Assembly: GCF_964019385.1 (NCBI RefSeq)
Contig: NC_088655.1
Span: 79,501-143,500, forward strand
Direction of reading: 5' to 3'
DNA length: 64,000 bases
Source of the DNA: Sycon ciliatum
Taxonomy: Eukaryota; Porifera; Calcarea; Leucosolenida; Sycettidae
The position numbers and the translations under genes were made by a program. This document shows positions 1 to 32,280 of the stretch, piece after piece. Under the pieces are notes generated by a model. It did not search any database, was not told the DNA's origin, and was given only the letters and a program-made list of their open reading frames with translations. How positions within the stretch are numbered: position 1 is the first letter of the stretch; each line of letters opens with the position of its first letter.

Positions 1-9
1 TCAAGAGAT

Positions 10-2961
10 CTATTTCGCACCTTCACGACGAACAGTGCCAAACAACTGTAAAGACAACACATTCTCCTTCTGAACACAAAGCTCAGGGTCTAACTTACGT
101 ATGTACAAAGCTTCCAACACGGCAAGATGTAACAAAGACCTACCACGCGACAAAACAGAGAATACATCATCGGAGTACCACTCACGACAACTAGCACTGC
201 CCGACAGGTGACACTTGATTGCCGAGGTACCGTTTCCCTGACCCGACGACTTGGCCGTTGTCACCTCCGATATTGCCGCTTGCGAATCTCTCCCATTACG
301 CCCTGCGTCCCTGCAATTCCGATTGCCTCGGTCGAGATCCGTGTGCTGCTCCACGTCCAGTCTGTCCTGCTTCCGTGGTCTACCTCGTTTCTTCACATTA
401 ACCGTTGTTGTCACTTCCAGTATTGGTTCTTTTGATTCGTCATCAATTCGTCTCCTCAATTGACTTCTGGTGACTCGTCCGGGGCTCGATTGTCCAGATG
501 TCAGTTTCGGTGGTTTCCGTATCGGTCTCTTCTTCTTGTTGACTGTTGTTTGGGTTGGCTCCAGCCCTCCGCCCGACGAAAAGGAGGAGGCATCGACAAG
601 CGTATCCACAGCGGACTTGGACAAGTCCACCTCAGACACAGACTGCACTGGACACTTCGGCGGACGACCACGCCGAGGTCGAGAACCACGTGCAGCTACA
701 GGGACAAGATTCAACGGTACATGTTGACGAATCCGTGCGCCCAGGTGCTGAAAGGTTCTACCCACGTACCGATTTTCACAATTTCGGCACTGAAAGAAAT
801 AGATTAAATTACTTTTGCTTAGGGTAGGTAGAACGTCCTTCTTCACGCTGAACGCACGGGTCGTCCCAAAGATGACATACAATTTGACACACGGATAAGA
901 GGAACAAACAATATTCCGCACCTCCTTCTCGACGCGCGAAGAACCGGCACCAACCCATGGCAAACGTAGTACCACAGGGCATCTCTCTGGTCCAAAAGTA
1001 ATCGTCTTTTCCAAGGTCGGTTTCTGGTTGATGAGTTTCATTAGAAGTGTCTTTGGATAGCCATTCTTTGTCATTATGGTTAAGAGTCGTTCTAGTTCCT
1101 CGTCCAGCAGATGAGGGGAACATATCCTATGTGCACGGTAGACAAGGGCCTTGACGAGGTGTGTTTTGGACTTAGTTGGAGTAAAACTTGACCATGGGAT
1201 ATACAAGCCTGTGAAAGTGGGCTTTCTATAAATGGTCGTGTCCATGTTGTGCGTATCCATGTTACGAGAAATACTAACATCCAGGAAAGAAAGGGTACCA
1301 TTGTTTTCACCATCTGATGTGAATTTTAATGCTGGATGTAAGGAGTTGAGAGTTTCCATAAACCTATCACAGGTTTCCTTGTCGTCGTCGTGACAATATA
1401 CATCGTCAACAAAACGACAGTACATTGATGGCCAAAGTGAAGGGTCAATAGACGACTCGCAGAAGCCGACAAATATGTTCGCCAAGACTGGCCCCAAAGG
1501 CGATCCCATGGCGACTCCATCATTCTGTTTGTACATTATATTGTCGAATGAAAACTCCACACCAGACGTGACCATGAACATAAGTTTCACGAACTCTGTT
1601 TCATTCAAATCTGGGGGAGTGATAGATCTGTTATGGTATAACGCCATGGCGCAAATGTCTATTGTTTCTCGTAAAGGAACGTTGGTAAACAAGCTCACTA
1701 CGTCATAGGAGCACATGTAACCATTTGATTCAAATTTCGAATCTCTAAGTTTTTCCACAAACTCAAACGTGTCTTTAACGCAATGTGTGTTGTACAAGGC
1801 AAGAACCGGTTGTAGCAAATTGCATAACCATTTCGAAACCTTGTATTGCGGAGATCCAGACATGCTTAAGATCGGGCGTAATGGAATATGTTTTTTATGA
1901 ATTTTTGGGAGCCCATACATCCTAGGTCTTGTCGAGCCTGTGGGAGCTAGATGATCATACTCATATTTGGTGATCTGATGCGTTCTAGAAAGAAAAAGCA
2001 GGTACTTACTCAGCTTGGTATCAATGTTTTCGGTATGGTCATACACATCGCAAGGCCCAAGTCTGCTGAATTTACTAATGTCATTGAGTATGACCAGCAT
2101 TTTCTCCCGGTAATTATCCGCAGACAAGATGACTGTTGCACGGCCTTTGTCCGGTCGAGAGATAACGATTTCTGGATTCTTTCGAAGCTCGTTGATCACT
2201 TTCATGTGTTCCCGTGATAGCGTGAATGATCGAGTGTCCGGAGGCGATTGTGCGAACCGAAAGGCTTCAGCGGCCAGTGAAGCCCGACAAGATCCAGCTG
2301 CTATATCCGACTTTGCCGGGATGCTAGATAGCTGTTGCTGAAGTAGTTCGAACTCGGCCAGGATATCAGTTTTCCTAAACCTCGGGGGAATACCGAAGTC
2401 CATTCCACCGCACAAAACATCCTTTTGAAGCTGGGTTAAGGTAATATCAGAGAGATTGATGATTGTTTCATAATTGTCACTGCAGGTTCCAAACCGGTCC
2501 TTCCTCAAAGCTAAAATAATGCCTGTGTGTTTCTTTTCAAGTCTAGAACGCTGCCTACAATCACATTCGGATAATAGCCAAGAGAACCTAATGAAGTCAA
2601 ATGTGTTGAGATGTGTTCGGCTTCTTTGGTAGGAAGACACAAACTTGGATCGTATGCTTTGAAGGTGGGCCTTGGCCTTTTTATGGTCATCTCGTAGCAA
2701 GACCTTTTCAATAGAGATGGAATCATAGAGTTTTAATTTGTGAACTCGCTGTTGGAGATACTTAGGCGCGATAGAGTAATGAAGGCAGTCACGAAGCAGT
2801 CGCACATGGTAGATGGCTGTGTTAAGGCGTCCCCGGAGAGAAAGGACGTCATTCAGAAGACCGATATGTTCGGTTTGGAGACGTCGCTTGAAGTAGTTAA
2901 AGCAGTGGCGTGGAGAAAGAAAGAACAGCAGTGTTACTGGTGCTGTGATAGGCATCAGCAT
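10..2961 (-). CDS. Penelope-like element polyprotein: reverse transcriptase plus GIY-YIG endonuclease (left copy)
   Basis: Intact reading frame encoding an RT with the Penelope signature: a DKGRAT motif, a YGLPKIHK motif, motif A around SYDVVSLFTNVP, motif B AMGSPLGPVLANIF and catalytic FVDD. After the RT comes a Cys-X2-Cys finger and the YVGRT part of a GIY-YIG nuclease, then a basic insert with AT-hook-like RGRPPK and KRGRPRK, then the second half of the nuclease ending ELCVQKENVLSL. The frame stays open upstream to 3054, but the codons above about 2979 are antisense of the opposite arm, so I chose the first ATG inside the element's own sequence (2961). The true start could be further upstream or lost. 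Confidence 0.9.
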   Translation of the reverse strand: MLMPITAPVTLLFFLSPRHCFNYFKRRLQTEHIGLLNDVLSLRGRLNTAIYHVRLLRDCLHYSIAPKYLQQRVHKLKLYDSISIEKVLLRDDHKKAKAHLQSIRSKFVSSYQRSRTHLNTFDFIRFSWLLSECDCRQRSRLEKKHTGIILALRKDRFGTCSDNYETIINLSDITLTQLQKDVLCGGMDFGIPPRFRKTDILAEFELLQQQLSSIPAKSDIAAGSCRASLAAEAFRFAQSPPDTRSFTLSREHMKVINELRKNPEIVISRPDKGRATVILSADNYREKMLVILNDISKFSRLGPCDVYDHTENIDTKLSKYLLFLSRTHQITKYEYDHLAPTGSTRPRMYGLPKIHKKHIPLRPILSMSGSPQYKVSKWLCNLLQPVLALYNTHCVKDTFEFVEKLRDSKFESNGYMCSYDVVSLFTNVPLRETIDICAMALYHNRSITPPDLNETEFVKLMFMVTSGVEFSFDNIMYKQNDGVAMGSPLGPVLANIFVGFCESSIDPSLWPSMYCRFVDDVYCHDDDKETCDRFMETLNSLHPALKFTSDGENNGTLSFLDVSISRNMDTHNMDTTIYRKPTFTGLYIPWSSFTPTKSKTHLVKALVYRAHRICSPHLLDEELERLLTIMTKNGYPKTLLMKLINQKPTLEKTITFGPERCPVVLRLPWVGAGSSRVEKEVRNIVCSSYPCVKLYVIFGTTRAFSVKKDVLPTLSKSNLIYFFQCRNCENRYVGRTFQHLGARIRQHVPLNLVPVAARGSRPRRGRPPKCPVQSVSEVDLSKSAVDTLVDASSFSSGGGLEPTQTTVNKKKRPIRKPPKLTSGQSSPGRVTRSQLRRRIDDESKEPILEVTTTVNVKKRGRPRKQDRLDVEQHTDLDRGNRNCRDAGRNGRDSQAAISEVTTAKSSGQGNGTSAIKCHLSGSASCREWYSDDVFSVLSRGRSLLHLAVLEALYIRKLDPELCVQKENVLSLQLFGTVRREGAK

Positions 2962-5784
2962 GGGCTGTCGCCTAGGCGCATCTACCATGTGCGACTGCTT
3001 CGTGACTGCCTTCATTACTCTATCGCGCCTAAGTATCTCCAACAGCGAGTTCACAAATTAAAACTCTATGATTCCATCTCTATTGAAAAGGTCTTGCTAC
3101 GAGATGACCATAACAAGGCCAAGGCCCACCTTCAAAGCATACGATCCAAGTTTGTGTCTTCCTACCAAAGAAGCCGAACACATCTCAACACATTCGACTT
3201 CATTAGGTTCTCTTGGCTATTATCCGAATGTGATTGTAGGCAGCGTTCTAGACTTGAAAAGAAACACACAGGCATTATTTTAGCTTTGAGGAAGGACCGG
3301 TTTGGAACCTGCAGTGACAATTATGAAACAATCATCAATCTCTCTGATATTACCTTAACCCAGCTTCAAAAGGATGTTTTGTGCGGTGGAATGGACTTCG
3401 GTATTCCCCCGAGGTTTAGGAAAACTGATATCCTGGCCGAGTTCGAACTACTTCAGCAACAGCTATCTAGCATCCCGGCAAAGTCGGATATAGCAGCTGG
3501 ATCTTGTCGGGCTTCACTGGCCGCTGAAGCCTTTCGGTTCGCACAATCGCCTCCGGACACTCGATCATTCACGCTATCACGGGAACACATGAAAGTGATC
3601 AACGAGCTTCGAAAGAATCCAGAAATCGTTATCTCTCGACCGGACAAAGGCCGTGCAACAGTCATCTTGTCTGCGGATAATTACCGGGAGAAAATGCTGG
3701 TCATACTCAATGACATTAGTAAATTCAGCAGACTTGGGCCTTGCGATGTGTATGACCATACCGAAAACATTGATACCAAGCTGAGTAAGTACCTGCTTTT
3801 TCTTTCTAGAACGCATCAGATCACCAAATATGAGTATGATCATCTAGCTCCCACAGGCTCGACAAGACCTAGGATATATGGGCTCCCAAAAATTCATAAA
3901 AAACATATTCCATTACGCCCGATCTTAAGCATGTCTGGATCTCCGCAATACAAGGTTTCGAAATGGTTATGCAATTTGCTACAACCGGTTCTTGCCTTGT
4001 ACAACACACATTGCGTTAAAGACACGTTTGAGTTTGTGGAAAAACTTAGAGATTCGAAATTTGAATCAAATGGTTACATGTGCTCCTATGACGTAGTGAG
4101 CTTGTTTACCAACGTTCCTTTACGAGAAACAATAGACATTTGCGCCATGGCGTTATACCATAACAGATCTATCACTCCCCCAGATTTGAATGAAACAGAG
4201 TTCGTGAAACTTATGTTCATGGTCACGTCTGGTGTGGAGTTTTCATTCGACAATATAATGTACAAACAGAATGATGGAGTCGCCATGGGATCGCCTTTGG
4301 GGCCAGTCTTGGCGAACATATTTGTCGGCTTCTGCGAGTCGTCTATTGACCCTTCACTTTGGCCATCAATGTACTGTCGTTTTGTTGACGATGTATATTG
4401 TCACGACGACGACAAGGAAACCTGTGATAGGTTTATGGAAACTCTCAACTCCTTACATCCAGCATTAAAATTCACATCAGATGGTGAAAACAATGGTACC
4501 CTTTCTTTCCTGGATGTTAGTATTTCTCGTAACATGGATACGCACAACATGGACACGACCATTTATAGAAAGCCCACTTTCACAGGCTTGTATATCCCAT
4601 GGTCAAGTTTTACTCCAACTAAGTCCAAAACACACCTCGTCAAGGCCCTTGTCTACCGTGCACATAGGATATGTTCCCCTCATCTGCTGGACGAGGAACT
4701 AGAACGACTCTTAACCATAATGACAAAGAATGGCTATCCAAAGACACTTCTAATGAAACTCATCAACCAGAAACCGACCTTGGAAAAGACGATTACTTTT
4801 GGACCAGAGAGATGCCCTGTGGTACTACGTTTGCCATGGGTTGGTGCCGGTTCTTCGCGCGTCGAGAAGGAGGTGCGGAATATTGTTTGTTCCTCTTATC
4901 CGTGTGTCAAATTGTATGTCATCTTTGGGACGACCCGTGCGTTCAGCGTGAAGAAGGACGTTCTACCTACCCTAAGCAAAAGTAATTTAATCTATTTCTT
5001 TCAGTGCCGAAATTGTGAAAATCGGTACGTGGGTAGAACCTTTCAGCACCTGGGCGCACGGATTCGTCAACATGTACCGTTGAATCTTGTCCCTGTAGCT
5101 GCACGTGGTTCTCGACCTCGGCGTGGTCGTCCACCGAAGTGTCCAGTGCAGTCTGTGTCTGAGGTGGACTTGTCCAAGTCCGCTGTGGATACGCTTGTCG
5201 ATGCCTCCTCCTTTTCGTCGGGCGGAGGGCTGGAGCCAACCCAAACAACAGTCAACAAGAAGAAGAGACCGATACGGAAACCACCGAAACTGACATCTGG
5301 ACAATCGAGCCCCGGACGAGTCACCAGAAGTCAATTGAGGAGACGAATTGATGACGAATCAAAAGAACCAATACTGGAAGTGACAACAACGGTTAATGTG
5401 AAGAAACGAGGTAGACCACGGAAGCAGGACAGACTGGACGTGGAGCAGCACACGGATCTCGACCGAGGCAATCGGAATTGCAGGGACGCAGGGCGTAATG
5501 GGAGAGATTCGCAAGCGGCAATATCGGAGGTGACAACGGCCAAGTCGTCGGGTCAGGGAAACGGTACCTCGGCAATCAAGTGTCACCTGTCGGGCAGTGC
5601 TAGTTGTCGTGAGTGGTACTCCGATGATGTATTCTCTGTTTTGTCGCGTGGTAGGTCTTTGTTACATCTTGCCGTGTTGGAAGCTTTGTACATACGTAAG
5701 TTAGACCCTGAGCTTTGTGTTCAGAAGGAGAATGTGTTGTCTTTACAGTTGTTTGGCACTGTTCGTCGTGAAGGTGCGAAATAG
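2740..5784 (+). CDS. Penelope-like element polyprotein, 5'-truncated right copy
   Basis: Same protein as the opposite-strand copy: Penelope RT (DKGRAT about residue 300, motif A about 449, AMGSPLGP about 515, FVDD about 546), GIY-YIG first half about 750-775, AT-hook-like insert, nuclease second half about 944-1000. Element-derived coding begins only at 2979 (around the IYHVRLL residues). The first 80 or so codons of the open frame are chance coding from the antisense of the left arm and the spacer, so the drawn start is not a genuine element start. Catalytic motifs are intact, but the missing N-terminus makes an active product doubtful. Confidence 0.85.
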   Translation: MNSLLEILRRDRVMKAVTKQSHMVDGCVKASPERKDVIQKTDMFGLETSLEVVKAVAWRKKEQQCYWCCDRHQHGLSPRRIYHVRLLRDCLHYSIAPKYLQQRVHKLKLYDSISIEKVLLRDDHNKAKAHLQSIRSKFVSSYQRSRTHLNTFDFIRFSWLLSECDCRQRSRLEKKHTGIILALRKDRFGTCSDNYETIINLSDITLTQLQKDVLCGGMDFGIPPRFRKTDILAEFELLQQQLSSIPAKSDIAAGSCRASLAAEAFRFAQSPPDTRSFTLSREHMKVINELRKNPEIVISRPDKGRATVILSADNYREKMLVILNDISKFSRLGPCDVYDHTENIDTKLSKYLLFLSRTHQITKYEYDHLAPTGSTRPRIYGLPKIHKKHIPLRPILSMSGSPQYKVSKWLCNLLQPVLALYNTHCVKDTFEFVEKLRDSKFESNGYMCSYDVVSLFTNVPLRETIDICAMALYHNRSITPPDLNETEFVKLMFMVTSGVEFSFDNIMYKQNDGVAMGSPLGPVLANIFVGFCESSIDPSLWPSMYCRFVDDVYCHDDDKETCDRFMETLNSLHPALKFTSDGENNGTLSFLDVSISRNMDTHNMDTTIYRKPTFTGLYIPWSSFTPTKSKTHLVKALVYRAHRICSPHLLDEELERLLTIMTKNGYPKTLLMKLINQKPTLEKTITFGPERCPVVLRLPWVGAGSSRVEKEVRNIVCSSYPCVKLYVIFGTTRAFSVKKDVLPTLSKSNLIYFFQCRNCENRYVGRTFQHLGARIRQHVPLNLVPVAARGSRPRRGRPPKCPVQSVSEVDLSKSAVDTLVDASSFSSGGGLEPTQTTVNKKKRPIRKPPKLTSGQSSPGRVTRSQLRRRIDDESKEPILEVTTTVNVKKRGRPRKQDRLDVEQHTDLDRGNRNCRDAGRNGRDSQAAISEVTTAKSSGQGNGTSAIKCHLSGSASCREWYSDDVFSVLSRGRSLLHLAVLEALYIRKLDPELCVQKENVLSLQLFGTVRREGAK

Positions 5785-6110
5785 ATCTCTTGATGTTTCT
5801 CTCTTTTTCTTGTCACTACGTTTTTGTCACTTATTGGATTTGCATGCTGTTTTCTTGATTCTTCACATCTATTTTTTTCGTGTCACTTCTACACATAATT
5901 GGAGTGATATATTTCTGAACTTCTTTTCCTTATAGTTGTAGTCTTTTAGCTTATTTCCATCATTCCCTGTAGTATTTTGACAAGAAGGGAACGAAAACGT
6001 TCAATACTTTGACACATGTCCTAATTGGCTGGTGGTGACTCTTGCGTAGATGCATGCGTAGACAATACTTTTTTTGTAAAAATAAATAAATAAATAAATA
6101 AAACCTAACC
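5785..6110 (+). other. Penelope-like element 3' UTR with AAAT repeat tail
   Basis: T-rich non-coding sequence after the right-copy stop codon. It ends in about five AAAT units near 6085-6105. The segment around 5960-6010 recurs in reverse orientation at about 62680-62740, directly outside another Penelope fragment, which shows it is element sequence and not host DNA. Confidence 0.7.
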
Positions 6111-14015: not shown

Positions 14016-14103
14016 TGGTATTGTTTTTTTTGGGGGGAATTTTATTTATTTATTTATTTTTTATGTTTTTGTCTTTTGGCTAGTTGTTGAAACTTATCTG
14101 GAC

Positions 14104-16606: not shown

Positions 16607-16681
16607 GAATGAAGGCACGAATGCATTTCGTGAGTTTAGTGAAGCTGCCTGCCGGAATGTGGATGAAGCTGATCCAATTAA

Positions 16682-17096
16682 AGGGGAAGTTAAGCCTATA
16701 TCAAAATTTCACCAGTTCTAGTTTCCGGGGTGCTGAGTCGAATGGTCTTGGTTCGAGGAAGCTGAAACTCTTCCTTCCTCCTTTATTCCCAATCAAACTC
16801 GCGCACTTCCACCGAAATTGGGTGACTGCGCCCTACTAGAGGGGGATTTGTATGCAAAAATGTCACTAAAAGCGCCATTTCGTTGTTATAAAAGCACGGA
16901 TGACCGCGATTGGCCCATATGTTGTGGTCTTTTGGACGCTGAGTTGATTGGTTTTGGTCCGAAAAGGCTGCGATGCAGCGTTCGGCCCTTATTCCCAATC
17001 AAACATGGCTGAACAAGCGGTCACGTGCTCCTGCGTACACCAGCGTACACCAGTCACCTGATGACACGATTTTTTATTTTAGGCTTAACTTCCCCT
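16682..17096. mobile_element. MITE with TTAA target duplication (415 bp)
   Basis: Perfect 17-bp terminal inverted repeats AGGGGAAGTTAAGCCTA, with TTAA on both outer sides (16678-16681 and 17097-17100). A TTAA duplication is typical of piggyBac and Kolobok families. Rearranged relatives lie at 22625-23463 and 27775-28485. Confidence 0.88.
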
Positions 17097-17959: not shown

Positions 17960-19939
17960 TCATCTGTGAGCAGCAACATATCTCTCCAGGATATGGCTGC
18001 TGAGGTAGCTCCACGCCCCGCGATTCTGGGCGATGCTCCTCAGCTCCTCACTATCTGCCGAGGTCTTGAGGGTCCTCCCAACCAGCTCGAGATCGGGTCT
18101 GAGCACGACCGGCAGAGTTGTGCGCGGCCTGCCCCTCCAGGTAGGCTCAGTGGATGGCTTGAAGTAGGAGCACATTGACAGATTCGCCAGTGCACTCTGG
18201 TCCAGCCGCAGCACGTGCCGAAACAGACACCAGCGGGCTCCCAGGATCGAGATACCAAGTGGTGTTGAGTTTGTCCTCTTGTACAGGGTGTTATTCTTGA
18301 TCTTAGCTGGGTACCGTATGCGAATAACTTTCCACAGTTGTTGTCTGTGAAACGCATCAACTAGCGGTGCCAGTGAGGCCCCAAGTCCCGTTGTTGTAGC
18401 ACAGGACCGGTAAGCCTTGTATAGCCGTACTCTCAGCCATTCGTTTACAATGGAACCACGTACCCATAATGCCCAGAGCCAGTGCAGGGCAGCCGTGGCG
18501 AGTTGCATTCTCCGCGCAGCATCCTCGTGGTCACCAATGAGGGAGCCCAGCTTCCTAGTGAGGCGCCATTCCTCGCACACTCTGTCGTTCAGCCGTGTGA
18601 TGTTTGTGAGTTCTGTTTTAGATTCATTGATGTTGAGGTCCCAGGTTTTGAGGCACTTTGCAATGTCGGGCAGGAGCTCTTGAATACGTTTGCAGTCGGA
18701 CGATAGGAAGTCGACATCGTCGGCGTACTCTGTACCAGTTGGCAAGCCGAGGTCGGGTCTTGCGCAGATAATCTGTCTCACCTCCCGAAGCACTGCCTCC
18801 AGGTAGATAACGAATAGGACAGGTGATAGTGAGTCACCCTGTGGTGTGCCTCGGTTGGTCTGGAACTGCTCGCTCTTCCCTCCAGGTAACCGGACCTCAA
18901 GGGACGTGTTCCTGAGTAGGTAGGAGATATTGGTGACCTCATCATTCTCAAGGAAGCTAGCTAATATAGTGAGCAAACGGTGCCTGGATATTGTGTCGAA
19001 CGCTTTCGACATGTCTATGCCGAGCACGCCAAATGATTCCTTCACTCGTTGGCACCGTGCTGCGATCCATCTGTAGGACCAAACAACATCAGCCGTACTC
19101 CTACCACTGCGGAAGCCACTCTGGTTCGGAGACAGGAATGTGTTAACTGCATGCCTGATGCGATTTAGGGCAATGATGGACAGCACTTTCCGAAGTGCAG
19201 TGAGAAGCACAATGGGCCTCAGGTTAGATGGTGGACATTTAGGCTTCCCAGGCTTCTGAAGTGGGACGAGATGGCCACCCGACAGCTGATCATCACAGTT
19301 GATGGCACGTGTGTATAGATCGGCAAGGTGACGGTGAAGCGGTGCTGGGCCATATTTTATAAGTTCAGCAGGTAGGTCGTCGGGTCCAATCGCTCTGCCG
19401 TTATTTAGGCGTCGTGCTGCTGACCTGACTTCTACCTCGCTTATCGGTATCCCAAGAGGTTTCTTCTCTTGGTGTAGAGGTGCGCAGGTGGAATCAGCAA
19501 AGGCTGCTGAGAAGTGATTTCTGATTATTGAAGCTGACTCCATCGGGCGAAGGACCAGTTTCCCGCTGGCATCATTCACCACTATCGGCGACTGCTTTTT
19601 GCGCTGCAGTAGATGCACAGCATGGAACATCTGGGCTCCGTCTTTTTGATTTTCAATTTCACGAGCTTTTTCATCTAGATGGCTGGCTGCATTTGCACAG
19701 GCATGTTGGCGGATCATGTGGGAGAATTTGTTGCGCTGTTGCTTTAGGATGCTAACTTCATCGGCATTCTTTTCATCACGGATCCGGTGTCTCAGTCGAC
19801 GCTTCTCACAGGACATTTTTAGCGTGTCGGCGTCCATGATCCACTTTCCACCTCTCTTCCTGGGTGCAGCAACGCCCAGAGTGTTCCGCGCTGCTGTAAT
19901 CACCGTTTGATGAATACCATTCCAGGTAGTTGTGGGCAA
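17960..19939 (-). CDS. Non-LTR reverse transcriptase (RTE-like), C-terminal part of ORF2
   Basis: About 659 residues. RT motifs: NLRPIVLLTALRKVLS, GFRSGRSTADVVWSYRW, GIDMSKAFDTISRHRLL (motif A), RGTPQGDSLSPVLF (motif B), EYADDVDFLS (motif C) and NESKTEL. The C-terminal region has the WRGRPRTTLP block also seen in the 58 kb element. The drawn start is set by the upstream frameshift near 19940; the natural product would be a fusion with the endonuclease frame. Confidence 0.88.
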   Translation of the reverse strand: MPTTTWNGIHQTVITAARNTLGVAAPRKRGGKWIMDADTLKMSCEKRRLRHRIRDEKNADEVSILKQQRNKFSHMIRQHACANAASHLDEKAREIENQKDGAQMFHAVHLLQRKKQSPIVVNDASGKLVLRPMESASIIRNHFSAAFADSTCAPLHQEKKPLGIPISEVEVRSAARRLNNGRAIGPDDLPAELIKYGPAPLHRHLADLYTRAINCDDQLSGGHLVPLQKPGKPKCPPSNLRPIVLLTALRKVLSIIALNRIRHAVNTFLSPNQSGFRSGRSTADVVWSYRWIAARCQRVKESFGVLGIDMSKAFDTISRHRLLTILASFLENDEVTNISYLLRNTSLEVRLPGGKSEQFQTNRGTPQGDSLSPVLFVIYLEAVLREVRQIICARPDLGLPTGTEYADDVDFLSSDCKRIQELLPDIAKCLKTWDLNINESKTELTNITRLNDRVCEEWRLTRKLGSLIGDHEDAARRMQLATAALHWLWALWVRGSIVNEWLRVRLYKAYRSCATTTGLGASLAPLVDAFHRQQLWKVIRIRYPAKIKNNTLYKRTNSTPLGISILGARWCLFRHVLRLDQSALANLSMCSYFKPSTEPTWRGRPRTTLPVVLRPDLELVGRTLKTSADSEELRSIAQNRGAWSYLSSHILERYVAAHR

Positions 19940-20856: not shown

Positions 20857-21147
20857 TAGATAATTTAAACACCTAGCACCAACATATCTACGAAGTGTTA
20901 ACCAACAACCAACTTGGGAGCCTCAGGTGTGGAAGGTTGTTGGCTGCGCCTGCTGGTTCGGCTGAGCAAGCGGTTGCGGAAGCAGGTGTTCTTGCATTGC
21001 ATTTGCTCACTTGCTACCCTTAGATTTGTTCCTATCTAAGACTTGAGAAAGCGGAGAGCCGGAGCGTGTCGTTTAAAAAAAGAAAGAAAAAAGGACAATG
21101 GACAACAACTTGAATACATTTGTCGTGCGGATTCAACATCTTCACAT

Positions 21148-21226
21148 GACAAAAAAAGTAAATTATCGTGTCCGTTCCCGAAGGGAACTCACGACGGCCG
21201 CTAACACCCGGTAAATCCTAGGATTT
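21148..21226 (-). mobile_element. 79-bp structured insertion with 12-bp target duplication
   Basis: Flanked on both sides by ACATCTTCACAT (21136-21147 and 21227-21238). The paralogous unit (near 26845-26860) has a single copy of that site and no insert. On the minus strand the insert reads GATTTACCGGGTGTTAG..., contains a hairpin GTTCCC-TTC-GGGAAC enclosed by TCGTG/CACGA, and ends in T7. A second copy is at 41985-42051. Confidence 0.8.
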
Positions 21227-21530
21227 ACATCTTCACATACAGCAACCACAAAATCCACTCACACTTCTATATCCAAGTGCGCTGATGTACCGGATGATAT
21301 ACAGTCAGGTAGTGTCACACTATGGCACAAAACTCACAGGGGTACTGAGACATTAACACCTAGCACATTTACGAAGCTCAAGCCAACAGCGTGTGCATGT
21401 GCTAAGGGTGAATAGCAACTAAATAGAGTGGTTGTCAGTTGACAAACCCCCTTTTATATGGAATGCAGTTGCGTGATGTCCACCACTTTTTGAACGTATA
21501 TTTCTTTTCATTGTTCAATGTGCGCACCAG

Positions 21531-21824
21531 CTCCAACAACTGGTCCTAGCATACTGTCAGCCATTGCTCTATCTAGCTCATCTATTTATGTTAACTGGTC
21601 AATACTAACACAACAAGAACTGAATGGTGTTCTACAAGGTTATCAGGTGGAATACATAGATGCTGATGGCGAGAATACAACTGTGGATTTCAACAAGTCT
21701 GTAACATTTACTATTCTACGTAACCTTTATTTCTTTACGGAATACAATATTTCTGTGAAAGCTAAAACTAATCCTGGGTTCGGCCCATATGGAGTTGTAG
21801 CAGCTGTTACTACTAAAGAAGATG
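21531..21824 (+). CDS. FN3 receptor exon D1
   Basis: One fibronectin type III domain in a 294-nt exon with phase-1 introns on both sides: acceptor ...GCGCACCAG, donor GATG|GTGAGT. It reads APTTGPSILSAIALSSSSIY, then the FN3 core VNWSIL, the YQVEYID strand, and the EYNISVKAKTNPGFGPYG strand-F/G region with the conserved Tyr. Several N-glycosylation sequons suggest an extracellular location. The duplicate exon D2 differs by one residue (TQQ against TEQ). The fold itself does not reveal the ligand. Confidence 0.88.
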
Positions 21825-22141
21825 GTGAGTTCAAACTTTACTTTGCTGAACATGTGCAATGCATAGATATATGACCAATGACAAGTGGGCGTGGGGAGAG
21901 TTGCGCTGCAGTTTCTTGATTCTTGTTAAAAAAATTAATCTTGGCAGTTCACTGCACTATGGTACTGACATTGCCTAAAAAGAAGGGCTTTCATATTTTG
22001 CCAAAAGGTAGGTACACCAAGCGGACTTTTCAGGTTGCAAGTTATTCTATTTGAACATCCAAGAAGAAAGTATACTTCTTTCTTCCACTACGGGATCCAG
22101 CAGAGTGCAAAGAAATGCTTAAACCCATCGATCTACACCTT

Positions 22142-22610
22142 TGCAGCCTAGAGAGCGTGTGTGGGCAGGCGTGTGTTTACCGCCATATTGCCAGGTGTAT
22201 CTTTACCACCATATTTATCAACCATAGGTACAGCTGCAGTGATGTCTTCAACTTCATTCTCCCGAGTCAAGCTCCGTATGAAGACATCCAAGAAGAAGAT
22301 TGCCTGATGAGTGCAGCGGGTACGAAACGTACGTCACAATCGAGCTATGTCGTTGCTGTGTCATCATCTATGTGCCATGCGCTACTTGATGTACCAGCCT
22401 GCTTTGCCGGATACCGCCAGCCATGCATCGACCAGGCGCCAGGCGCGAACTGATGGTGGTGGTGGTGAGAAGGAGAGCTCTGTGCCAGAACTTTGCAGCC
22501 TAGAAAGCATGTGTGGGCAGGCGTGTGTTTACCGCCATATTGCCAGGTGTGTCTTTACCACCATATTTATCAAACCATAAGTACAGCTGCAGTGATGTCT
22601 TCGACGTCAT
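22142..22610 (+). mobile_element. Retrozyme-like insertion with terminal direct repeats and hammerhead motif
   Basis: Flanked by the 12-bp duplication GATCTACACCTT (22130-22141 and 22611-22622), and absent from the paralogous site near 27760. Direct repeats of about 115 bp lie at 22142-22256 and 22494-22609 (period 352 bp), so the insert is about 1.3 units of a 352-bp tandem monomer. A type I hammerhead motif lies at 22298-22341. No coding capacity is seen. This matches the described layout of metazoan retrozymes: small, noncoding, tandemly arranged, ribozyme-bearing and mobilised in trans. A TRIM-type LTR element is the main alternative, but a 12-bp duplication argues against it. Confidence 0.75.
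22298..22341 (+). ncRNA. Hammerhead ribozyme, type I (in retrozyme-like insert)
   Basis: Core CTGATGA at 22304-22310; stem II GTGC/GTAC (22311-22314 with 22320-22323, one G-U pair) with loop AGCGG; GAAA at 22324-22327; a very short palindromic stem III ACGTACGT; cleavage predicted after C22335; stem I GATTG/CAATC with a C-A mismatch next to the core. Short stem III hammerheads typically cleave as dimers. Confidence 0.72.
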
Positions 22611-22624
22611 GATCTACACCTTCA

Positions 22625-23463
22625 ATTATAATTTTAAGAAGGAAGTACACCCTAAAATCAAATTTTCACCAGTTGTAGTCTTCGGGGTGCTGAGTCGAAT
22701 GGTCTTGGTCTGAGGAAGCTGAGACGCTCCCTTCCTCCTTTATTTCCAATCGAACTCACGCACTTCCACCGAAACTGGGTGACTGCGCCCTACTAGATAG
22801 GGATTTGTATGGAAAAGTCACTAAAAACTTCGTTCTTATAAAAGCACGGATGACCGCTGAGTCGACTGGTTTTGATCCGAAAAGGCTGCGATGCAGCGTT
22901 CGGCCCCTATTCACAATCGAACACGGTTGAGTAAGCGGTCACGTGCTCTTGCGTACACCAGTCACCTGGTCATCGTGCCTGCAGGCTACAATTTTCACAT
23001 CAAGGTTCAACTCAAAGGTTCAAAGCGGGGAGTCGTAAGAGGCTTTTACGACTCCCTGGTTCAAATGTTCAACTCGAGTGACATAAACGGGCCCAAACAG
23101 GCTGTAAATGAGCACGTGATCGCTTACTGAACCGTGTTCGATTTGAAATACGGGCCGAACGCTGCATTGCAGCCTTTTCGGACCAAAACCAGTCGACTCA
23201 GCGTCCAAAAGGCTGCAACATATGGACCAATCGTGGTCATCCGCGCTTTCATAAGAACAAAACGGCGTTTTTAGTGGCTTTTTCCATACAAATCCCTATC
23301 TAGTAGGACGCAGTCACCCAGTTTCGGTGAAGTGCGCGAGTTCGATTGGGAATAAAGGAGGAAGGGAGCGTCTCAGCTTCCTCGGACCTCGACCATTCAA
23401 CTCAGCATCCCGAAGACTACAACTGGTGAAAATTTGATTTTAGGGTATAGCTCCCCTTTAATT
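22625..23463. mobile_element. Two TTAA-type MITEs in inverted arrangement
   Basis: Left arm (22625-23010) and right arm (about 23075-23462) are inverted relatives of the MITE at 16682-17096. They share the CACCGAAACTGGGTGACTG and AAAAGCACGGATGACC segments. The composite ends TAAAGGGGAGC on the right. In unit 2 the right arm is deleted. Confidence 0.75.
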
Positions 23464-23639
23464 GTAGCGAGAAGACTAGCAGTCACTGAGACTTCCAAGT
23501 GAAGAAGTCAATCAACATGCCATGATACAAGAATGAATAAACTCGCCGTTTTTACGAGAAACCACGAGCCTCGAGAACAGAATACTGCATGATAGAGGTG
23601 GCTGCAGAGTGCAGGCGCAACTGTGGTGGTGAAACTGGA

Positions 23640-25190
23640 GCATCTACGCCGACCTGAGGTCTGGGCTTCAGCGATACTAGTAAAATAGAGTAAAATGGGG
23701 GAGCCAGGGTGCAATCAGAGAGGGTGTTCAGGGATCGTTCAGAGGGCAACTGTTGCTGAGTGTCAGTCTCGACTGTGGAGAGACTTGTAGGCACCTTCCT
23801 TGAATGCCTGCATTGTCTTCGGCATGGGAAGGTAGCAGGGCGGATGGGAGATGATTCCAGTTTTATATCGTGGCGTGGGGAATGATTGGAGAGCACTACT
23901 ACGGGCTCCGGCGGGCAATGTCAGTTCTAGCTGTTGCTGGTACTCCTCTTGCTGGTGGCGAGTGGAGCGCCGGTGCTGGTTAGCAACTGCCCTCCCCGCT
24001 GGGTGGTGTCATGGTGGTCAGGATTGGGAGACCATCAATCTAATGCAGCCTTTACAGGCACGTGAGTGCTGCGACTTGACACCAAACAGTGAGGCTTGGG
24101 AGATACGACCCTGGGTCGATGAACTTTAGGGCTTGATGCCGTACCTGGTCCACCTGGTTCAGGGTAGACTGGGCCTCACCCAACCATGAAAGAGGGCAGT
24201 ACTCCAAGTACTGGGTGGACGAAGCCACGATACAAGGCATACTTGCCCTTGTCATCCAGAATTAGCAGAGCCTTCCTCATGAGAAGCCAAGACGTTGGTG
24301 ACCACGGACTGCAATTTGTCGAATATGGGAGCGAAAGGAGAGGCTCCAATCGAAGAGCACTCCAAGCAACTTCAGATCCTCCACTTTCTCTATGGCCACC
24401 CCGTTGAAAGTGGCTGGAGGAATTGCCCAGGGTTGATGTTGATGCAAAATCGTCAATACTTTGGATTTTGTCGGCTCGAATGCGATCTTCCAGCTCTGGT
24501 CCCATTTTGCTGGGGCATCTACAACAGTCTGGAGCTGCGCTAGGCCAACTGGGAGAGCATTCCGGAACGCGATGCACTGATATAGCATAGTGTCATCTGC
24601 ATATATGGCGTGCTGGGTTGTGGCTGGGATCGAGAGGTGGTCCTCCATGTCATTGACATATAGGAGGAAAAAGGGAGGCCCGATATGCTCCCATGTGGCA
24701 CACCTGATCTGATTTGGAATTCAGGTGAGATTTCGCCACTCATAACGGCCTAGATTCGTCTATCCGCCAGGTAGCTGTGGAGCCACTTAAGGAGGTTCCC
24801 GGATACTCCGTAAGCCTTTGCCTTGGGAAGGCCACCTGCATGGGAGACTTTATCGAAGGCCCCCGCAATGTCAACGGCAACAATGCGTCCAGCACCGCCG
24901 GCAGCTGCTATCTTGCTCCACTGGTGGTGCAGTCCTGCTAGGAGGTGAGCAGGCCCTAACCCTCGGCGAAAACCAGACTGGCGGTTTGAGAATATATTAT
25001 TTCCTTCGAGAAAGTTGGTGAGAGCACGGTTAACAACTGCTTCCATTGTCTTGGAGATGAGTGACAGGAGAGAAATGGGACAATAGTTCGATGGGGCTGA
25101 CTTTGACCGTTTCTTATGGACTGGGCAGACACTTGCCACTTTCCAAGACTGTGGTTCTGTCCCCGACGTCATGCACTGGCGGAAGGTAGC
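23640..25190 (-). pseudogene. Degenerate LINE reverse transcriptase fragment, unit 1
   Basis: Minus strand, broken by a stop and frameshifts. Recognisable pieces in order: VCPVHKKRSKSAPSNYCPIS, FSNRQSGFRRGLGPAH, AVDIAGAFDKVSH (motif A), GVPHGSI (motif B), IYADDTMLYQC (motif C), LLGVLFDWSLSFRSHI, then the C-terminal region. It lacks the endonuclease, so it is 5'-truncated. The duplicated copy is at 28519-30335. Confidence 0.85.
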
Positions 25191-25256
25191 TGGCTCTTGA
25201 CTTGATTTATTACAGTCTGTTGCATGTGTGTGTTTTTGTTGATGTTTTCACTCCAG

Positions 25257-25550
25257 CTCCAACAACTGGTCCTAGTATACAGTCAGCCATTGCTCTATCC
25301 AGCTCATCTATCTATGTCGACTGGTCAATACTAACACAACAAGAACTCAATGGTGTTCTACAAGGTTATCAGGTGCAATACATAGATACTGCTGGCCAGA
25401 ACAAGTCGGTAGAAGTGAACGCTACAGTTACCTCAGCCGTTCTGACCAACCTCACTGCGTACACAGTGTACAACATCTCTGTGAAGGCTAGAACGGGGCC
25501 TGGGTATGGTCCATTTGGAGCAACAACACTACAAAGAAGTGGAGAAGATG
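25257..25550 (+). CDS. FN3 receptor exon E1
   Basis: Second FN3 domain, a 294-nt phase 1-1 exon: acceptor TTTTCACTCCAG, donor GATG|GTGAGT. The first half is nearly identical to exon D1 (PTTGPSI, SAIALSSSSIYV, QELNGVLQGYQV), while the second half differs (SVEVNATVTSAVLTNLTAY, VKARTGPGYGPFG). Sequons NKS, NAT, NLT and NIS suggest heavy N-glycosylation. Duplicated as E2 with Asp to Asn in the SIYVDW segment. It joins in frame to D2. Confidence 0.88.
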
Positions 25551-26084
25551 GTGAGTGTAAAGTGTTGCTGACGTTCTTTAAAGTATTTTGGAGTCTCTAG
25601 CAAAACATGCAGTGACATTGTCTATCGCAGCAGGTACACTCGAACGTCTCTTATCCAGGCACCTTGGCACTGGGCACTGCCCATATCTCAGATTTGCCCG
25701 TATCTCAGGGTAACTAATCTAATCATGTATCATAGTATCATTTTTATCATTTGTTAAGTAAAAGTGGGGTGATGTCAAATGGTGAACGGTGCTATTCGGC
25801 CAATATGTTTGGTGGTTCGCCAAAATTCTTAAACTATCACCTATCCGTTAGATAATTAATGTTGGCAGCTTGTGATTGCATTTTTTACCTGCCATATTCT
25901 TGGAACCCCTGGCACTGTGTTGCTGAAGAGGTTAGCAGCTTGTGATTGGATTTCTCACTTGCTTTTTTTGGAACCCCTGGCACTGTGTTGCTGGAGAATT
26001 CTCACACTTTGCCCGTAATCTTGCGCCCATGTTTTGTAGTATAAATCTGACCATCTACACCTGATATCATCCTATTCAATATCA

Positions 26085-26128
26085 CCTTCTCTGATGAGCC
26101 TTATGAAGGCGAAACAGCTGTCAGGAGG
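26085..26128 (+). ncRNA. Hammerhead ribozyme, type I, unit 1
   Basis: Complete motif: stem I CCTTCT (26085-26090) with AGGAGG (26123-26128), six pairs including one G-U; CTGATGA 26091-26097; stem II GCCTT-ATG-AAGGC; GAAA 26111-26114; short palindromic stem III ACAGCTGT; cleavage predicted after C26122. The host element is not identified, but minimal hammerheads of this form are known from Penelope-like elements and retrozymes. Confidence 0.78.
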
Positions 26129-27155
26129 AATTTCAGTATCTACCTGCAACACTTCCTTGTATGGCTGTTGGTGTGTGTAATGGCGACCGAGGCTAGCAGT
26201 AAGTCGGCTGTGAGAGCGCATGGAGGAGAGGAGAGGAAGAGTTCTTTAAAAGTGGGGTGGCTTCATCATTTTTTGCTGACGTTTCTTCGGCACATATTGC
26301 TCATGTTCAGGATAAACAAGAATCCACTGATGGAAATGTGTGTATTACACAGATTGACAGTGACCAATGAACACTTGCACATTCGGAAAAGTTCAAAAAC
26401 CCTTAAATGGAAACAATTTTGCCATAGAATGTCAAGCTGAAGGTGCTCGACAGAAATGTCATACAGAGAAGGTCATGTGTGCAACGAATGGAGCAAAATG
26501 ATTAGCATCGCATACACGCGTCTCTTCTGGTTGCCAGATCTTGCTTCTCTTCTGTTTGTCAGAGATACGATCACGAAAGTCCTCGCTGGTCAGCCAATAA
26601 CTCGCGAGCCGCAGGCAGTGGATCTTTTCCGCTTCAGTCGCCAGTTGGAATCGAGTTCATAACTGAATTCATCCATCAATACCCGTATGCTAGGCCCAAG
26701 AGAGTCGCTGCCCACCTGAACTATGTTCATCTAGGGCTGAAACAGACTCACCACGCATCATTAGCATCAGCCTCAATCGAGCCACATATTAAAAAAAGAA
26801 AGAAAAAAGGACAATGGACACCAACTTGAATACATTTGTCTTCCAGATTCAACATCTTCACGTACAGCAACCACAAAATCCACTCACACTTCTATATCCA
26901 AGTGCGCTGATGTACCGGATGATATACAGTCAGGTAGTGTCACACTATGGCACAAAACTCACAGGGGTACTGAGACATTAACACCTAGCACATTTACGAA
27001 GCTCAAGCCAACAGCGTGTGCATGTGCTAAGGGTGAATAGCAACTAAATAGAGTGGTTGTCAGTTGACAAACCCCCTTTTATATGGAATGCAGTTGCGTG
27101 ATGTCCACCACTTTTTGAACGTATATTTCTTTTCATTGTTCAATGTGCGCACCAG

Positions 27156-27449
27156 CTCCAACAACTGGTCCTAGCATACTGTCAGCCATTGCTCTATCTA
27201 GCTCATCTATTTATGTTAACTGGTCAATACTCACAGAACAAGAACTGAATGGTGTTCTACAAGGTTATCAGGTGGAATACATAGATGCTGATGGCGAGAA
27301 TACAACTGTGGATTTCAACAAGTCTGTAACATTTACTATTCTACGTAACCTTTATTTCTTTACGGAATACAATATTTCTGTGAAAGCTAAAACTAATCCT
27401 GGGTTCGGCCCATATGGAGTTGTAGCAGCTGTTACTACTAAAGAAGATG
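27156..27449 (+). CDS. FN3 receptor exon D2
   Basis: Duplicate of D1 with the same 294-nt length, the same phase-1 borders (GCACCAG acceptor, GATG|GTGAGT donor) and one amino-acid change (SILTEQELNG in place of SILTQQELNG). The open frame and intact splice sites indicate that it is functional or very recently so. Confidence 0.88.
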
Positions 27450-27774
27450 GTGAGTTCAAACTTTACTTTGCTGAACATGTGCAATGCATAGATATATGAC
27501 CAATGACAAGTGGGCGTGGGGAGAGTTGCGCTGCAGTTTCTTGATTCTTGTTAAAAAAATTAATCTTGGCAGTTCACTGCACTATGGTACTGACATTGCC
27601 TAAAAAGAAGGGCTTTCATATTTTGCCAAAAGGTAGGTACACCAAGCGGACTTTTCAGGTTGCAAGTTATTCTATTTGAACATCCAAGAAGAAAGTATAC
27701 TCCTTTCTTCCACTACGGGATCCAGCAGAGTGCAAAGAAATGCTTAAACTCATCGATCTACACCTTCAATTATA

Positions 27775-28485
27775 ATTTTGAAAAGGGGGAAGTACACCCT
27801 AAAATCAAATTTTCACCAGTTGTAGTCTTCGGGGTGCTGAGTCGAATGGTCTTGGTCTGAGGAAGCTGAGACGCTCCCTTCCTCCTTTATTCCCAATCGA
27901 ACTCACGCACTTCCACCGAAACTGGGTGACTGCGACCTACTAGATAGGGATTTGTATGGAAAAGTCACTAAAAACGCCGTTTCGTTCTTATTTGTTGTTT
28001 GTTTGTATTCTTTATTTAGAGTGGGAAGTCCAAAACAGGCCCTAGCCTAATAACAATGGTCCCACTAGTGAGGGAATGCTGTGTATCTGTGCATCAGCCT
28101 AGCGGATCAGTGAGTGTAACAGCAACTAGTAGGGAAAGAAAAAGAGAGAAGAAAAACAACTCAAAACAGGAGTTGCGACTTGCATAGGGAGGAAATAACG
28201 CAAAGAGCAGTGCAAACAGTATTTGTAAAAAGGCTTATTTATCTGGTAAGCAAAAAGGCAAGAGCCATTGACTTAAAGCGATTGCGTTTTCTTTCTTGCC
28301 TGACCTTATAAAAGCACGGATGACCGCTGAGTCGACTGGTTTTGGTCCGAAAAGGCTGCGATGCAGCGTTCGGCCACTATTCCCAATCGAACACGGTTGA
28401 GTAAGCGGTCACGTGCTCATGCGTACACCAGTCACCTGGTCATCGTGCCTGCAGGCTACAATTTTCACGTCAAGGTTCAACTCAA
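27775..28485. mobile_element. TTAA-type MITE copy of unit 2, interrupted and truncated
   Basis: Corresponds to the left arm of the inverted MITE pair in unit 1; it is split by the insertion at 27993-28314. The right arm is replaced by a 33-nt inverted filler. Confidence 0.7.
27993..28314 (-). mobile_element. LINE 3' end insertion (tail type C), unit 2 only
   Basis: Flanked by CTTAT on both sides (27988-27992, 28315-28319); the unit 1 site near 22830 is empty. On the minus strand it carries AGGC/GCCT hairpin, CTAAATAAAG and an ACAAAC-rich tail, resembling the tail at about 43545-43620. Confidence 0.75.
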
Positions 28486-28518
28486 ATCCTGACCACCATG
28501 ACACCACCGAGCGGCGAG

Positions 28519-30335
28519 CAAGACCTGAGGTCTGGGCTTCAGCGATACTAGTAAAATAGAGTAAAATGGGGGAGCCAGGGTGCAATCAGAGAGGGTGTTC
28601 AGGGATCGTTCAGAGGGCAACTGTTGCTGAGTGCCAGTCTCGACTGTGGAGAGACTTGTAGGCACCTTCCTTGAATGCCTGCATTCTCTTCGGCATGGGA
28701 AGGTAGCAGGGTGGATGGGAGATGATTCCAGTTTTATATCATGGCGTGGGGAATGATTGGAGAGCACTACTACGGGCTCCGGCGGGCAATGTCGGTTCTA
28801 GCTGTTGCTGGTACTCCTCTTGCTGGTGGCGAGTGGAGCGCCGGTGCTGGTTAGCAACTGCCCTCGCCGCTCGGTGGTGTCATGGTGGTCAGGATTGGGA
28901 GACCATCAATCTAATGCAGCCTTTACAGGCACGGGGTTGCTGCGACTTGACACCAAACAGTGAGGCTTGGGAGACACGACCCTGGGTCGATGAACTTTAG
29001 GGCTCGGTGCCGTACCTGGTCCACCTGGTTCAGGGTAGACTGGGCCTCACCCAACCATGAAAGAGGGCAGTACTCCAAGTACTGGGTGGACGGAGCCAAG
29101 ATACAAGGCATACTTGCCCTTGTCATCCAGAATTAGCGGAGCCTTCCCCATGAGAAGCCAAGACGTTGGTGACCACGGACTGCAACTTGTCGAATATGGG
29201 AGCGAAAGGAGAGGCTCCAATCGAAGAGCACTCCAAGCAACTTCAGATCCTCCACTTTCTCTATGGCCACCCCGTTGAAAGTGGCTGGAGGAATTGCCCA
29301 GGGTTGATGGTGATGCAAAATCGTCAATACTTTGGATTTTGTCGGCTCGAATGCGATCTTCCAGCTCTGGTCCCATTTTGCTGGGGCATCTACAACAGTC
29401 TGGAGCTGCGCTAGGCCAACTGGGAGAGCATTTCGGAACGTGATGCACTGATAAAGCATAGTGTCATCTGCATATATGGCGTGCTGGGTTGTGGCTGGGA
29501 TCGGGAGGTGGTCCTCCATGTCATTGACATATAGGAGGAAATAGGGGGGCCCAATATGCTCCCATGTGGCACACCTGATCTGATTTGGAATTCAGGTGAG
29601 ATTTCGCCACTCATAACGGCCTGGATTCGTCTATCCGCCAGGTTTGCTGTGGAGCCACTTAAGGAGGTTCCCGGATACTCCGTAAGCCTTTGCCTTGGGA
29701 AGGCCACCTGCATGGGAGACTTTATCGAAGGCCCCGCAATGTCAACGGCAACAACACAACTGCTATTCTATGGAACTGTTTACCCCCCAGTCTAACATCG
29801 GAAGCCTCGTTCTATAAGTTCAAAGCTGTCCTCAGGAAATTTACAGCTGACCATGCTCATGAAATCAACGGAATTCCGTCACCTTGCAGTTGATTTTCTC
29901 CATTTCTCTCCTCATCAATCCCTACTTGTCTTTGTACATACATCTACATCTACTGTTCTTTCAATCAAATGAACCCCTCGATAGGCACGTTGCCTTTGGG
30001 TCATTTCATAATAATAATAATAATGCGTACAGCACCGCCGGCAGCTGCTATCTTGCTCCACTGGTGGTGCAGTCCTGCTAGGAGGTGAGCAGGCCCTAAC
30101 CCTCGGCGAAAACCAGACTGGCGGTTTGAGAATATATTATTTCCTTCGAGAAAGTTGGTGAGAGGAAGGTTAACAACTACTTCGATTGTCTTGGAGATGA
30201 GTGACAGGAGAGAAATGGGCCAATAGTTCGATGGGGCTGACTTTGACCGTTTCTTATGGACTGGGTAGACACTTGCCACTTTCCAAGACTGTGGTTCTGT
30301 CCCCGACGTCATGCACTGGCGGAAGGTAGCTGGCT
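28519..30335 (-). pseudogene. Degenerate LINE reverse transcriptase fragment, unit 2
   Basis: Paralogous copy of the unit 1 fragment with the same broken RT motifs (IAGAFDK region now disrupted, YADDTMLYQC, LLGVLFDWSLSF). It is further interrupted by the plus-strand LINE end at 29755-30023, within the motif A region. Confidence 0.85.
29755..30023 (+). mobile_element. 5'-truncated LINE 3' end (tail type B), unit 2 only
   Basis: Inserted after GGCAACAA where unit 1 reads straight on to TGCGT. It encodes LWNCLPPSLTSEASF as the ORF2 terminus, then a tail hairpin AGGC/GCCT framed by CCC/GGG and an AAT repeat. No clear target duplication. Confidence 0.82.
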
Positions 30336-30396
30336 CTTGACTTGATTTACTAAAGTCTGTTGCATGTGTGTGTTTTTGTTGATGTTTTCACTCCAG

Positions 30397-30690: not shown

Positions 30691-30793
30691 GTGAGTGTAA
30701 AGTGTTGCTGACGTTCTTTAAAGTATTTTGGAGTCTCTAGCAAAACATGCAGTGACATTGTCTATCGCAGCAGGTACACTCGAACGTCTCTTA

Positions 30794-31109: not shown

Positions 31110-31575
31110 TTATCCAGACACCTTGGCACTGGGCACTGCCCGTATCTCAGATTTGCCCGTATCTCAGATTTGCCCGTATCTCAGGGTAACTAATCTAATC
31201 ATGTATCATATTAATCATTTTTATCATTTTTTAAGTAAAAGTGGGGTGATTTCAAATGGTGAACGGTGCTATTCGGCCAATATGTTTGGTGGCTCGCCAA
31301 AATTCTTAAACTATCACCTAGCCGTTGGATAATTAATGTTAGCAGCTTGTGATTGCATTTTTCACCTGCCATTTTCTTGGAACCCCTGGCACTGTGTTGC
31401 TGAAGAGGTTAGCAGCTTGTGATTGGATTTCTCACTTGCTTTTATTTTTGAACCCCTGGCATGTGTTGCTGGAGAATTGTAACTTCTCATTCTCACACTT
31501 TGCCCGTGATCTTGCGCCCATGTTTTGTAGTATAAATCTGACGATCTCCACCTGATATCATCTTATTCAATATCA

Positions 31576-31619
31576 CCTTCGCTGATGAGCCTTATGAAGG
31601 CGAAACAGCTGTCAGGAGG
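31576..31619 (+). ncRNA. Hammerhead ribozyme motif, unit 2, stem I weakened
   Basis: Paralog of 26085-26128 with identical core, stem II and stem III, but a T to G change at 31581 removes the stem I pair next to the core. Confidence 0.65.
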
Positions 31620-32280
31620 AATTTCAGTATCTACCTGCAACCCTTCCTTGTATGGCTGTTGGTGTGTGTAATGGCGACCGAGGGTAGCAGTAAGTCGGCT
31701 GTGAGAGCGCATGGAGGAGAGGAGAGGAAGAGTTCTTGAAAAGTGGGGTGGCTTCATCACTTTTTGGTGAAGTTTCTTCGGCACATATTGCTCATGTTCA
31801 GGATAAACAAGAATCCACTGATGGAAATGTGTGTATTACACAGATTGACAGTGACCAATGAACACTTGCACATTCGGAAAAGTTCAAAAACCCTTAAATC
31901 GAAACAATTTTGCCATAGAATGTCAAGCTGAAGGTGCGCGACAGAAATGTCATACAGAGAAGGTCATGTGCGCAACGAATGGAGCAAAATGAATAGCATC
32001 GCATGCACGCGTCTCTTCTGCTTGCCAGATCGTGCTTCTCTTCTGTTTGTCAGAGATACGATCACGAAAGTCCTCGCTGGTCAGCCAATAACTCACGAGC
32101 CGCAGGCAGTGGATCTTTTCCGCTTCAGTCGCCAGTTGGAATCGAGTTCATAACTGAATTCATCCATCAATACCCGTATGCTAGGCCCAAGAGAGTCGCT
32201 GCCCACCTGAACTATGTTCATCTAGGGCTGAAACAGCCTCACCACGCATCATTAGCATCAGTCTCAATCGAGCCAGACAT

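Follow-up and report, generated by a model that had tools for sequence, protein, structure and literature searches.

Hammerhead retrozymes of the sponge Sycon ciliatum insert with two fixed ends, an anatomy that points to Penelope-type mobilisation

The locus

Here, we describe a short insertion with a hammerhead ribozyme core in the genome of the calcareous sponge Sycon ciliatum, together with the genome-wide retrozyme family to which it belongs. The insertion lies in a stretch of 64,000 nucleotides of contig NC_088655.1 (positions 79,501 to 143,500; hereafter the window, in whose coordinates positions are given). Across the family, insertions are typically built from two oppositely oriented arms, with one outer end at each of two fixed sites of the monomer, and this anatomy makes mobilisation by Penelope-type machinery the best-supported mechanism on the sequence comparisons presented below.

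As a first-pass annotation of this DNA had proposed, a 469-bp insert is present between two exact copies of the 12-bp target-site duplication GATCTACACCTT, and its 1.33 monomers of 352 bp agree with the earlier estimate of about 1.3 (Table 1). The terminal direct repeats recur with a period of 352-353 bp and measure 116 bp rather than the 115 bp first given, differing from one another by 6 substitutions over 116 aligned sites and by one indel. The unfilled site, which had been placed in a paralog near 27760, is found at 27755-27766, where the GATCTACACCTT bases occur once within aligned paralogous flank, and the filled copy minus the insert and one duplication aligns to the empty copy right across the junction.

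The filled and empty sites lie in two colinear segments (21073-26784 and 26789-32275), which consist of fibronectin type III exons and introns, abut in tandem, and are 97-99.5% alike. This arrangement gives some weight to the alternative that the empty site represents a second allele, placed in tandem by the assembler, instead of a paralog, whereas the further independent indels found in each of the two segments argue against it, and we consider this explanation unlikely. Whether paralog or other allele, the empty site is genuine pre-integration sequence. The integration had also been described as recent and as residing in an intron of a receptor gene. The duplication sets only a bound on its age, and a recent date fits poorly with terminal repeats that are more diverged than their flanks (see RNA template); on its fibronectin type III exons, the gene is at most a candidate receptor.

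Table 1. Features of the window discussed in the text
Feature	Position	Strand	Remarks
Penelope-like element, head-to-head palindrome	1..6079	.	arms 3101 bp, 99.87% identical; C14:79213-85579
Penelope-like open reading frame (ORF)	13..3057	-	1015 codons open
Penelope-like ORF	2737..5781	+	1015 codons open; RVT_1 2.8e-6; GIY-YIG 0.008, below cut-off
Open frame with fibronectin type III domain	21494..21871	+	upstream of the insertion
Left target-site duplication GATCTACACCTT	22130..22141	.	12 bp
Retrozyme insertion	22142..22610	+	469 bp; 1.33 monomers of 352 bp; single-orientation
Terminal direct repeat, copy 1	22142..22257	+	
Type I hammerhead	22298..22341	+	predicted cut after 22335
Terminal direct repeat, copy 2	22494..22610	+	end 22610 is monomer position 116, within the A window (113-124)
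Right target-site duplication GATCTACACCTT	22611..22622	.	12 bp, exact
Duplication AAAAGTGGGGTG of second element	25760-25771 and 26248-26259		12 bp
Second hammerhead element, head-to-head	25772..26247	+	short minus arm left, plus arm right
Tail of second element	about 25775-25805		at left, minus arm
Second-family hammerhead	26085..26128	+	intact 6-bp stem I, 5-bp stem II, palindromic CAGCTG stem III
Empty pre-integration site	27755..27766	.	paralogous segment
Duplicated copy of second element	31249..31738	+	AAAAGTGGGGTG at 31237-31248 and 31739-31750
Hammerhead of duplicated second element	31576-31619		mismatch at stem I base

Hammerhead ribozyme and family identity

The core of the window copy (CTGATGA..CGAAAC) begins at 22304. 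Three matches to the core pattern occur in the window, as compared with 0.04 expected from shuffles, the other two being at 26091 and 31582, and a stem-aware scan that allows at most one core mismatch recovers these three and no others. In random sequence of equal dinucleotide content, about one stem-aware site arises per window, while exact cores arose just 4 times in 40 simulated windows. The exact ribozyme pattern had no match in either of two wider collections, one of genomic and one of viral contigs. Rfam gave no hammerhead match at 22298-22341, either at the gathering score in a search of the whole window or with E-values up to 10 over positions 22100-22640. The free fold of the window copy is no better than those of shuffles, and the hammerhead is not the favoured structure when the short ribozyme stretches are folded thermodynamically. 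The lack of an above-threshold hit at 22298-22341 is an outcome that the first-pass annotation had named as refuting its reading; for this copy, it is explained by decay.

With neither Rfam at the window copy nor the folds in its favour, the hammerhead is identified from its core pattern, the consensus of the family and matches in a sister array. The consensus of 93 full units and the window copy contains a complete type I hammerhead with a 6-bp stem I, a 4-bp stem II and a six-base palindrome as the stem III region, and the Rfam model RF00163 matches four units of the sister array L040 at 35.4 bits (cut-off 34). The window copy has seven differences from this consensus, of which three fall inside the ribozyme, at monomer positions 172, 180 and 195 (window 22313, 22321 and 22336), and it is because of these three that Rfam is blank here. 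Among these differences is the C-A mismatch beside the core that the first-pass annotation had pointed out, and the window ribozyme appears to have decayed since insertion.

A search of the single genome (538 Mb in 313 contigs) with the monomer returned 1,342 first-look candidates, the best 40 of which were scored to give 220 matches. Many of the scored matches are tandem, spaced 351-352 bp apart, with one to about 14 monomers per arm, which bears out the expectation of further tandem copies. The loci studied are the best matches rather than a random sample. Because the copies are tandem at a 352-bp period and sister units contain an above-threshold type I hammerhead, the retrozyme identity given in the first-pass annotation holds at the level of the family, and assignment to the metazoan-type retrozymes is supported by these sequences. 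Taken by itself, the window element is an unexceptional, decayed representative of a class already known.

Insertion anatomy

We fetched 37 loci with their flanks, mapped the monomer on each, and set all ends against the consensus. A scripted, blind classification of ends covered 39 clusters (the 37 loci plus the window), or 36 once L031, L033 and L034 had been dropped as apparent duplicates of the insertions at L014 and L043; two loci that are two-armed by eye (L018 and L028) were counted by the script's class. Twenty-four of the 36 non-duplicate insertions are composites in head-to-head arrangement (minus block left, plus block right), mostly inside one duplication. Their outer 3' ends use two fixed sites, here termed A and B and separated by about 38 nt, with a different site on each side. 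Exactly one A and one B are seen in 21 insertions, where the A ends occupy monomer positions 113-124 (median 119) and the B ends positions 73-89 (median 81); there are no A/A and no B/B insertions, and three have one other end. Were the sites chosen independently and equally, 21 mixed pairs out of 21 would arise about 5 times in ten million. The 12 single-armed insertions divide into six ending at A and six at B, and the window insertion, with its end at monomer position 116, is single-armed with an A end. Target duplications were found in 29 of the 39 clusters, versus 3 of 200 mismatched flank pairs, and their lengths are 11-14 bp in 23 of 30 cases in the non-duplicate set. The rule of one A and one B per insertion is new and precise. 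Two single-armed loci (L021 and L039) have their 5' end at site B, as though a second arm had zero length.

The same anatomy bears on two routes that would not involve Penelope. Insertion driven by a long interspersed nuclear element (LINE), by target priming with twin priming, draws on the LINE reverse transcriptase (RT) frames that occur in the window, and twin priming can likewise yield inverted head-to-head copies. Two fixed 3' ends with one on each side, as seen in 21 of the 24 two-ended insertions, are not expected of twin priming. Additionally, a one-sided tail is a Penelope trait in print (PMC3846280) and is present in the resident Penelope-like elements described below, making the LINE route very improbable. 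The tandem monomers and the arrays of variable length would also suit a satellite or extrachromosomal circular DNA that was reinserted by a DNA route without RNA; random reintegration leaves the fixed ends, the mostly 11-14-bp duplications and the A/B rule unexplained, and we hold this to be the least probable route of all.

RNA template

The inner 5' ends of the arms are scattered over the monomer, with 1 of 44 lying no more than 3 nt from the cut predicted for the ribozyme, and the RNA that was copied had therefore been joined across the cut point. Variants shared between units were counted without the window, L031, L033 and L034, and with at most three blocks per locus in the between-locus part. 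Units of the same arm share 3.66 variants per kb, units of opposite arms 3.42, and units of different loci 0.44, and because opposite arms share variants as often as units of the same arm do, both arms derive from one RNA type. Variants are shared between the arms in 18 of the 23 two-armed loci. No difference between arms exists in L026, L044 or L040, the last having 26 variants in common and none that differ across 18 pairs; in L027, all units of an arm of about 14 monomers carry the same 1-nt deletion as the opposite arm. A circle copied over several laps would be the simplest template and is the one that best fits these sequences.

Several observations weigh against a single circular template. 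Five of the 23 two-armed loci have no variant common to both arms, and units within a locus differ at 6.3 per kb. Polymorphic sites that occur in at least three loci are fixed within the locus 24 times and mixed 14 times, in part at CpG. The terminal repeats of the window insertion also diverge more than its flanks do, with 6 differences in 116 sites as opposed to 9 in 1109 for the near flanks (p = 0.0016). These points touch on the alternative that insertion was of Penelope type and that its template was a linear, uncleaved multimer from a young, homogeneous array. The mixed sites inside some loci are in keeping with such a template, as are the different variants on the terminal repeats of the window insertion, all of which a single circle would require to be later changes, and insertion of an anole element is reported to be unaffected by ribozyme mutants and to use mainly unprocessed RNA as its substrate (PMC11167929). 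The deletion common to both arms of L027 and the identical arms of L040, L026 and L044 speak against a linear multimer, and we find it rather unlikely. The divergence of the terminal repeats falls short of proof of a multimer template: the excess is weaker when set against the whole segmental duplication (6/116 vs 86/4399, p = 0.03), and it could be explained by CpG decay or by gene conversion of the flanks.

At the inner junctions (n = 22), where the arms meet, the overlap is 1-4 nt in 15 cases and 0 nt in four, with extra bases in three. This microhomology is weak, and much of it may be BLAST over-extension.

Second hammerhead family and resident Penelope-like elements

The two other cores in the window (26091-26122 and 31582-31613) belong to a second element family that is distinct in sequence from the retrozyme family. 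The segmental duplication took its element here along into each of the two copies, and the family has a tail of about 37 nt and a unit that holds subrepeats of about 69 bp. With the best-matching model, HH9, the hammerhead at 26091 scores 16.1 bits versus an Rfam cut-off of 52. The genome yielded 529 first-look candidates, of which the best 40 were scored, and ends were read in 20 fetched loci and the window. Two outer ends are readable in 13 independent loci, 12 of these being A/B and nine of the 12 having a well-scored duplication; in 8 of the 20 loci, only one 3' end was seen.

The Penelope-like element reported in the window is also present, as a palindrome with two 1015-codon frames. Pfam places RVT_1 slightly below the cut-off, with a weak GIY-YIG domain. 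The left end of the element, which lies outside the window, has a tail and is about 29 nt longer than the right end, which has none and lies at about 6079. By eye, the element is flanked by a duplication, AAAAATAAATAA, but this is in simple sequence. A genome search with the Penelope-like protein gave 9,178 first-look candidates, the best 45 of which were scored. One further copy (C9:1702022) has a tail on the right and none on the left, and a member of a related family (C9:12658417-12663629) has a tail on the left and none on the right; in a fourth element (C12), the right end is disrupted and unreadable.

Inspection by eye yielded additional observations on these elements. The 3' untranslated region (UTR) of the window element has a hammerhead fossil near 5968-6010, and among 14 Penelope-like copies (L079-L092), hammerhead-like motifs (CTGAAGA or TTGATGA ... 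GAAAACGT) are found in the 3' UTRs of three families, and most copies terminate in AAT/TTA simple repeats. In the flanks of L014 and L031, a member of the 1025-codon Penelope-like family has a retrozyme in its 3' UTR, and this retrozyme was apparently copied to two places along with its host element.

Proposed mechanism

In published descriptions of Penelope, both DNA strands are cut and extended, and two adjacent internal RT start sites bound a tail of 30-40 bp (PMC11167929); one of the two inverted pseudo-long terminal repeats (pLTRs) has a 31-bp tail on its 3' side, target-site duplications are present, and the head-to-head arrangement is the most frequent (PMC3846280). Judging by their sequences, the retrozyme insertions match this published mode of insertion point by point. 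The mover of animal retrozymes is treated in print as an open choice between LINEs and Penelope-like elements (PMC7229834, PMC11722881), and the latter were put forward by Cervera and de la Pena as strong candidates on the grounds that they coexist with retrozymes, share hammerheads with them and likewise occur as tandem copies (PMC7229834). The mobilisation by Penelope-type machinery that the first-pass annotation had envisaged is backed here by the A/B ends, the duplications, and the same anatomy in the resident Penelope-like elements.

It is most likely, then, that Penelope-type machinery inserted these retrozymes. Cuts about 12 bp apart would open the two strands of the host DNA, and each DNA 3' end would prime RT on the retrozyme RNA at its own fixed internal site, A for one strand and B for the other. 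RT would pass the ligated hammerhead junction for several laps, which is most simply pictured on a circular RNA, and the two cDNAs, on opposite strands, would then join by their ends. The window copy would be a single-armed product begun at A. We assign a probability of about 0.83 to the reading that the family is a non-autonomous, metazoan-type hammerhead retroelement inserted in trans by a Penelope-type RT/endonuclease. The 352-bp unit is too short to encode an RT and a GIY-YIG endonuclease, and the retrozymes behave like Penelope at insertion, yet they are not Penelope-like elements themselves.

Several points, besides the within-locus differences described above, count against this reading. 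At two loci (L015 and L011), one end is at neither A nor B, and L066, from the second family, reads A/A, with an unsupported duplication. The ends of three resident Penelope-like families showed no clear retrozyme-like tail when compared by eye. Finally, the Penelope enzyme and its cis sequences seem co-adapted, with no cross-mobilisation seen in the work described in PMC3846280.

More tentatively, and at somewhat less than even odds, two Penelope-type RTs may copy one RNA circle at once, one seated at A and the other at B, with each primed from a different strand of a single staggered cut and running for several laps before the cDNAs join head-to-head. The A/B rule would be strict under simultaneous copying because one RNA offers each site once. 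If true, such copying would explain both the one-A-one-B rule and the one-sided Penelope tail by a single mechanism.

Comparison with known systems

Like the metazoan non-LTR retrozymes described by Cervera and de la Pena (2020, PMC7229834), the family has a type I hammerhead, lacks a long terminal repeat (LTR), coexists with Penelope-like elements, and combines target duplications of more than 4 bp with a small tandem monomer (352 bp, versus about 170-400, and inside the broader span of about 150-450 bp taken for the class). Its one-pair stem III capped by a palindromic tetraloop is as given there for axolotl Amex1. The head-to-head composites and the fixed A/B ends set it apart from metazoan retrozymes as described in that source. 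The window monomer has a GC content of 52%, against a tendency to less than 50% in metazoan retrozymes, and its predicted circle is no more self-paired than shuffles (z = +0.53, with 74 of 100 shuffles being no less stable), whereas strong self-pairing is the reported tendency (PMC7229834). No description of head-to-head retrozymes or retrozyme tails was found in the literature searched, most of it non-subscription.

With Penelope-like elements, the family shares the head-to-head arms, the optional one-sided tail of about 30-40 nt, the target duplication, the internal fixed RT start, and hammerhead motifs (PMC11167929, PMC3846280). Unlike those elements, it has no RT or endonuclease, a unit of only 352 bp, and many tandem units per arm. 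Plant LTR retrozymes are similar in their hammerhead and circular RNA model and differ in their type III hammerhead, LTRs, primer-binding site and polypurine tract, and 4-bp duplications (PMC7761336).

A Penelope signature is thus read at base resolution in the insertion products of two hammerhead families and in resident Penelope-like elements, and it is the insertion products themselves that add to the earlier case from coexistence and shared hammerheads. Which machinery moves the retrozymes thereby becomes a question open to direct experiment, given a purified enzyme and an RNA circle of defined sequence, and the A/B rule places limits on models of RNA-to-DNA copying by Penelope elements.

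Other features of the window

Foldback-like inverted repeats adjoin the insertion (22649-23459 and 16675-17030) and are common to other places in the window. Long open frames at 11103-14045, 17963-19939 and 57959-60076 (minus strand) have non-Penelope RT domains (RVT_1), one of them with an endonuclease. At 56420-56717, there are nine 33-bp tandem repeats that are 98% alike, with several frames open.
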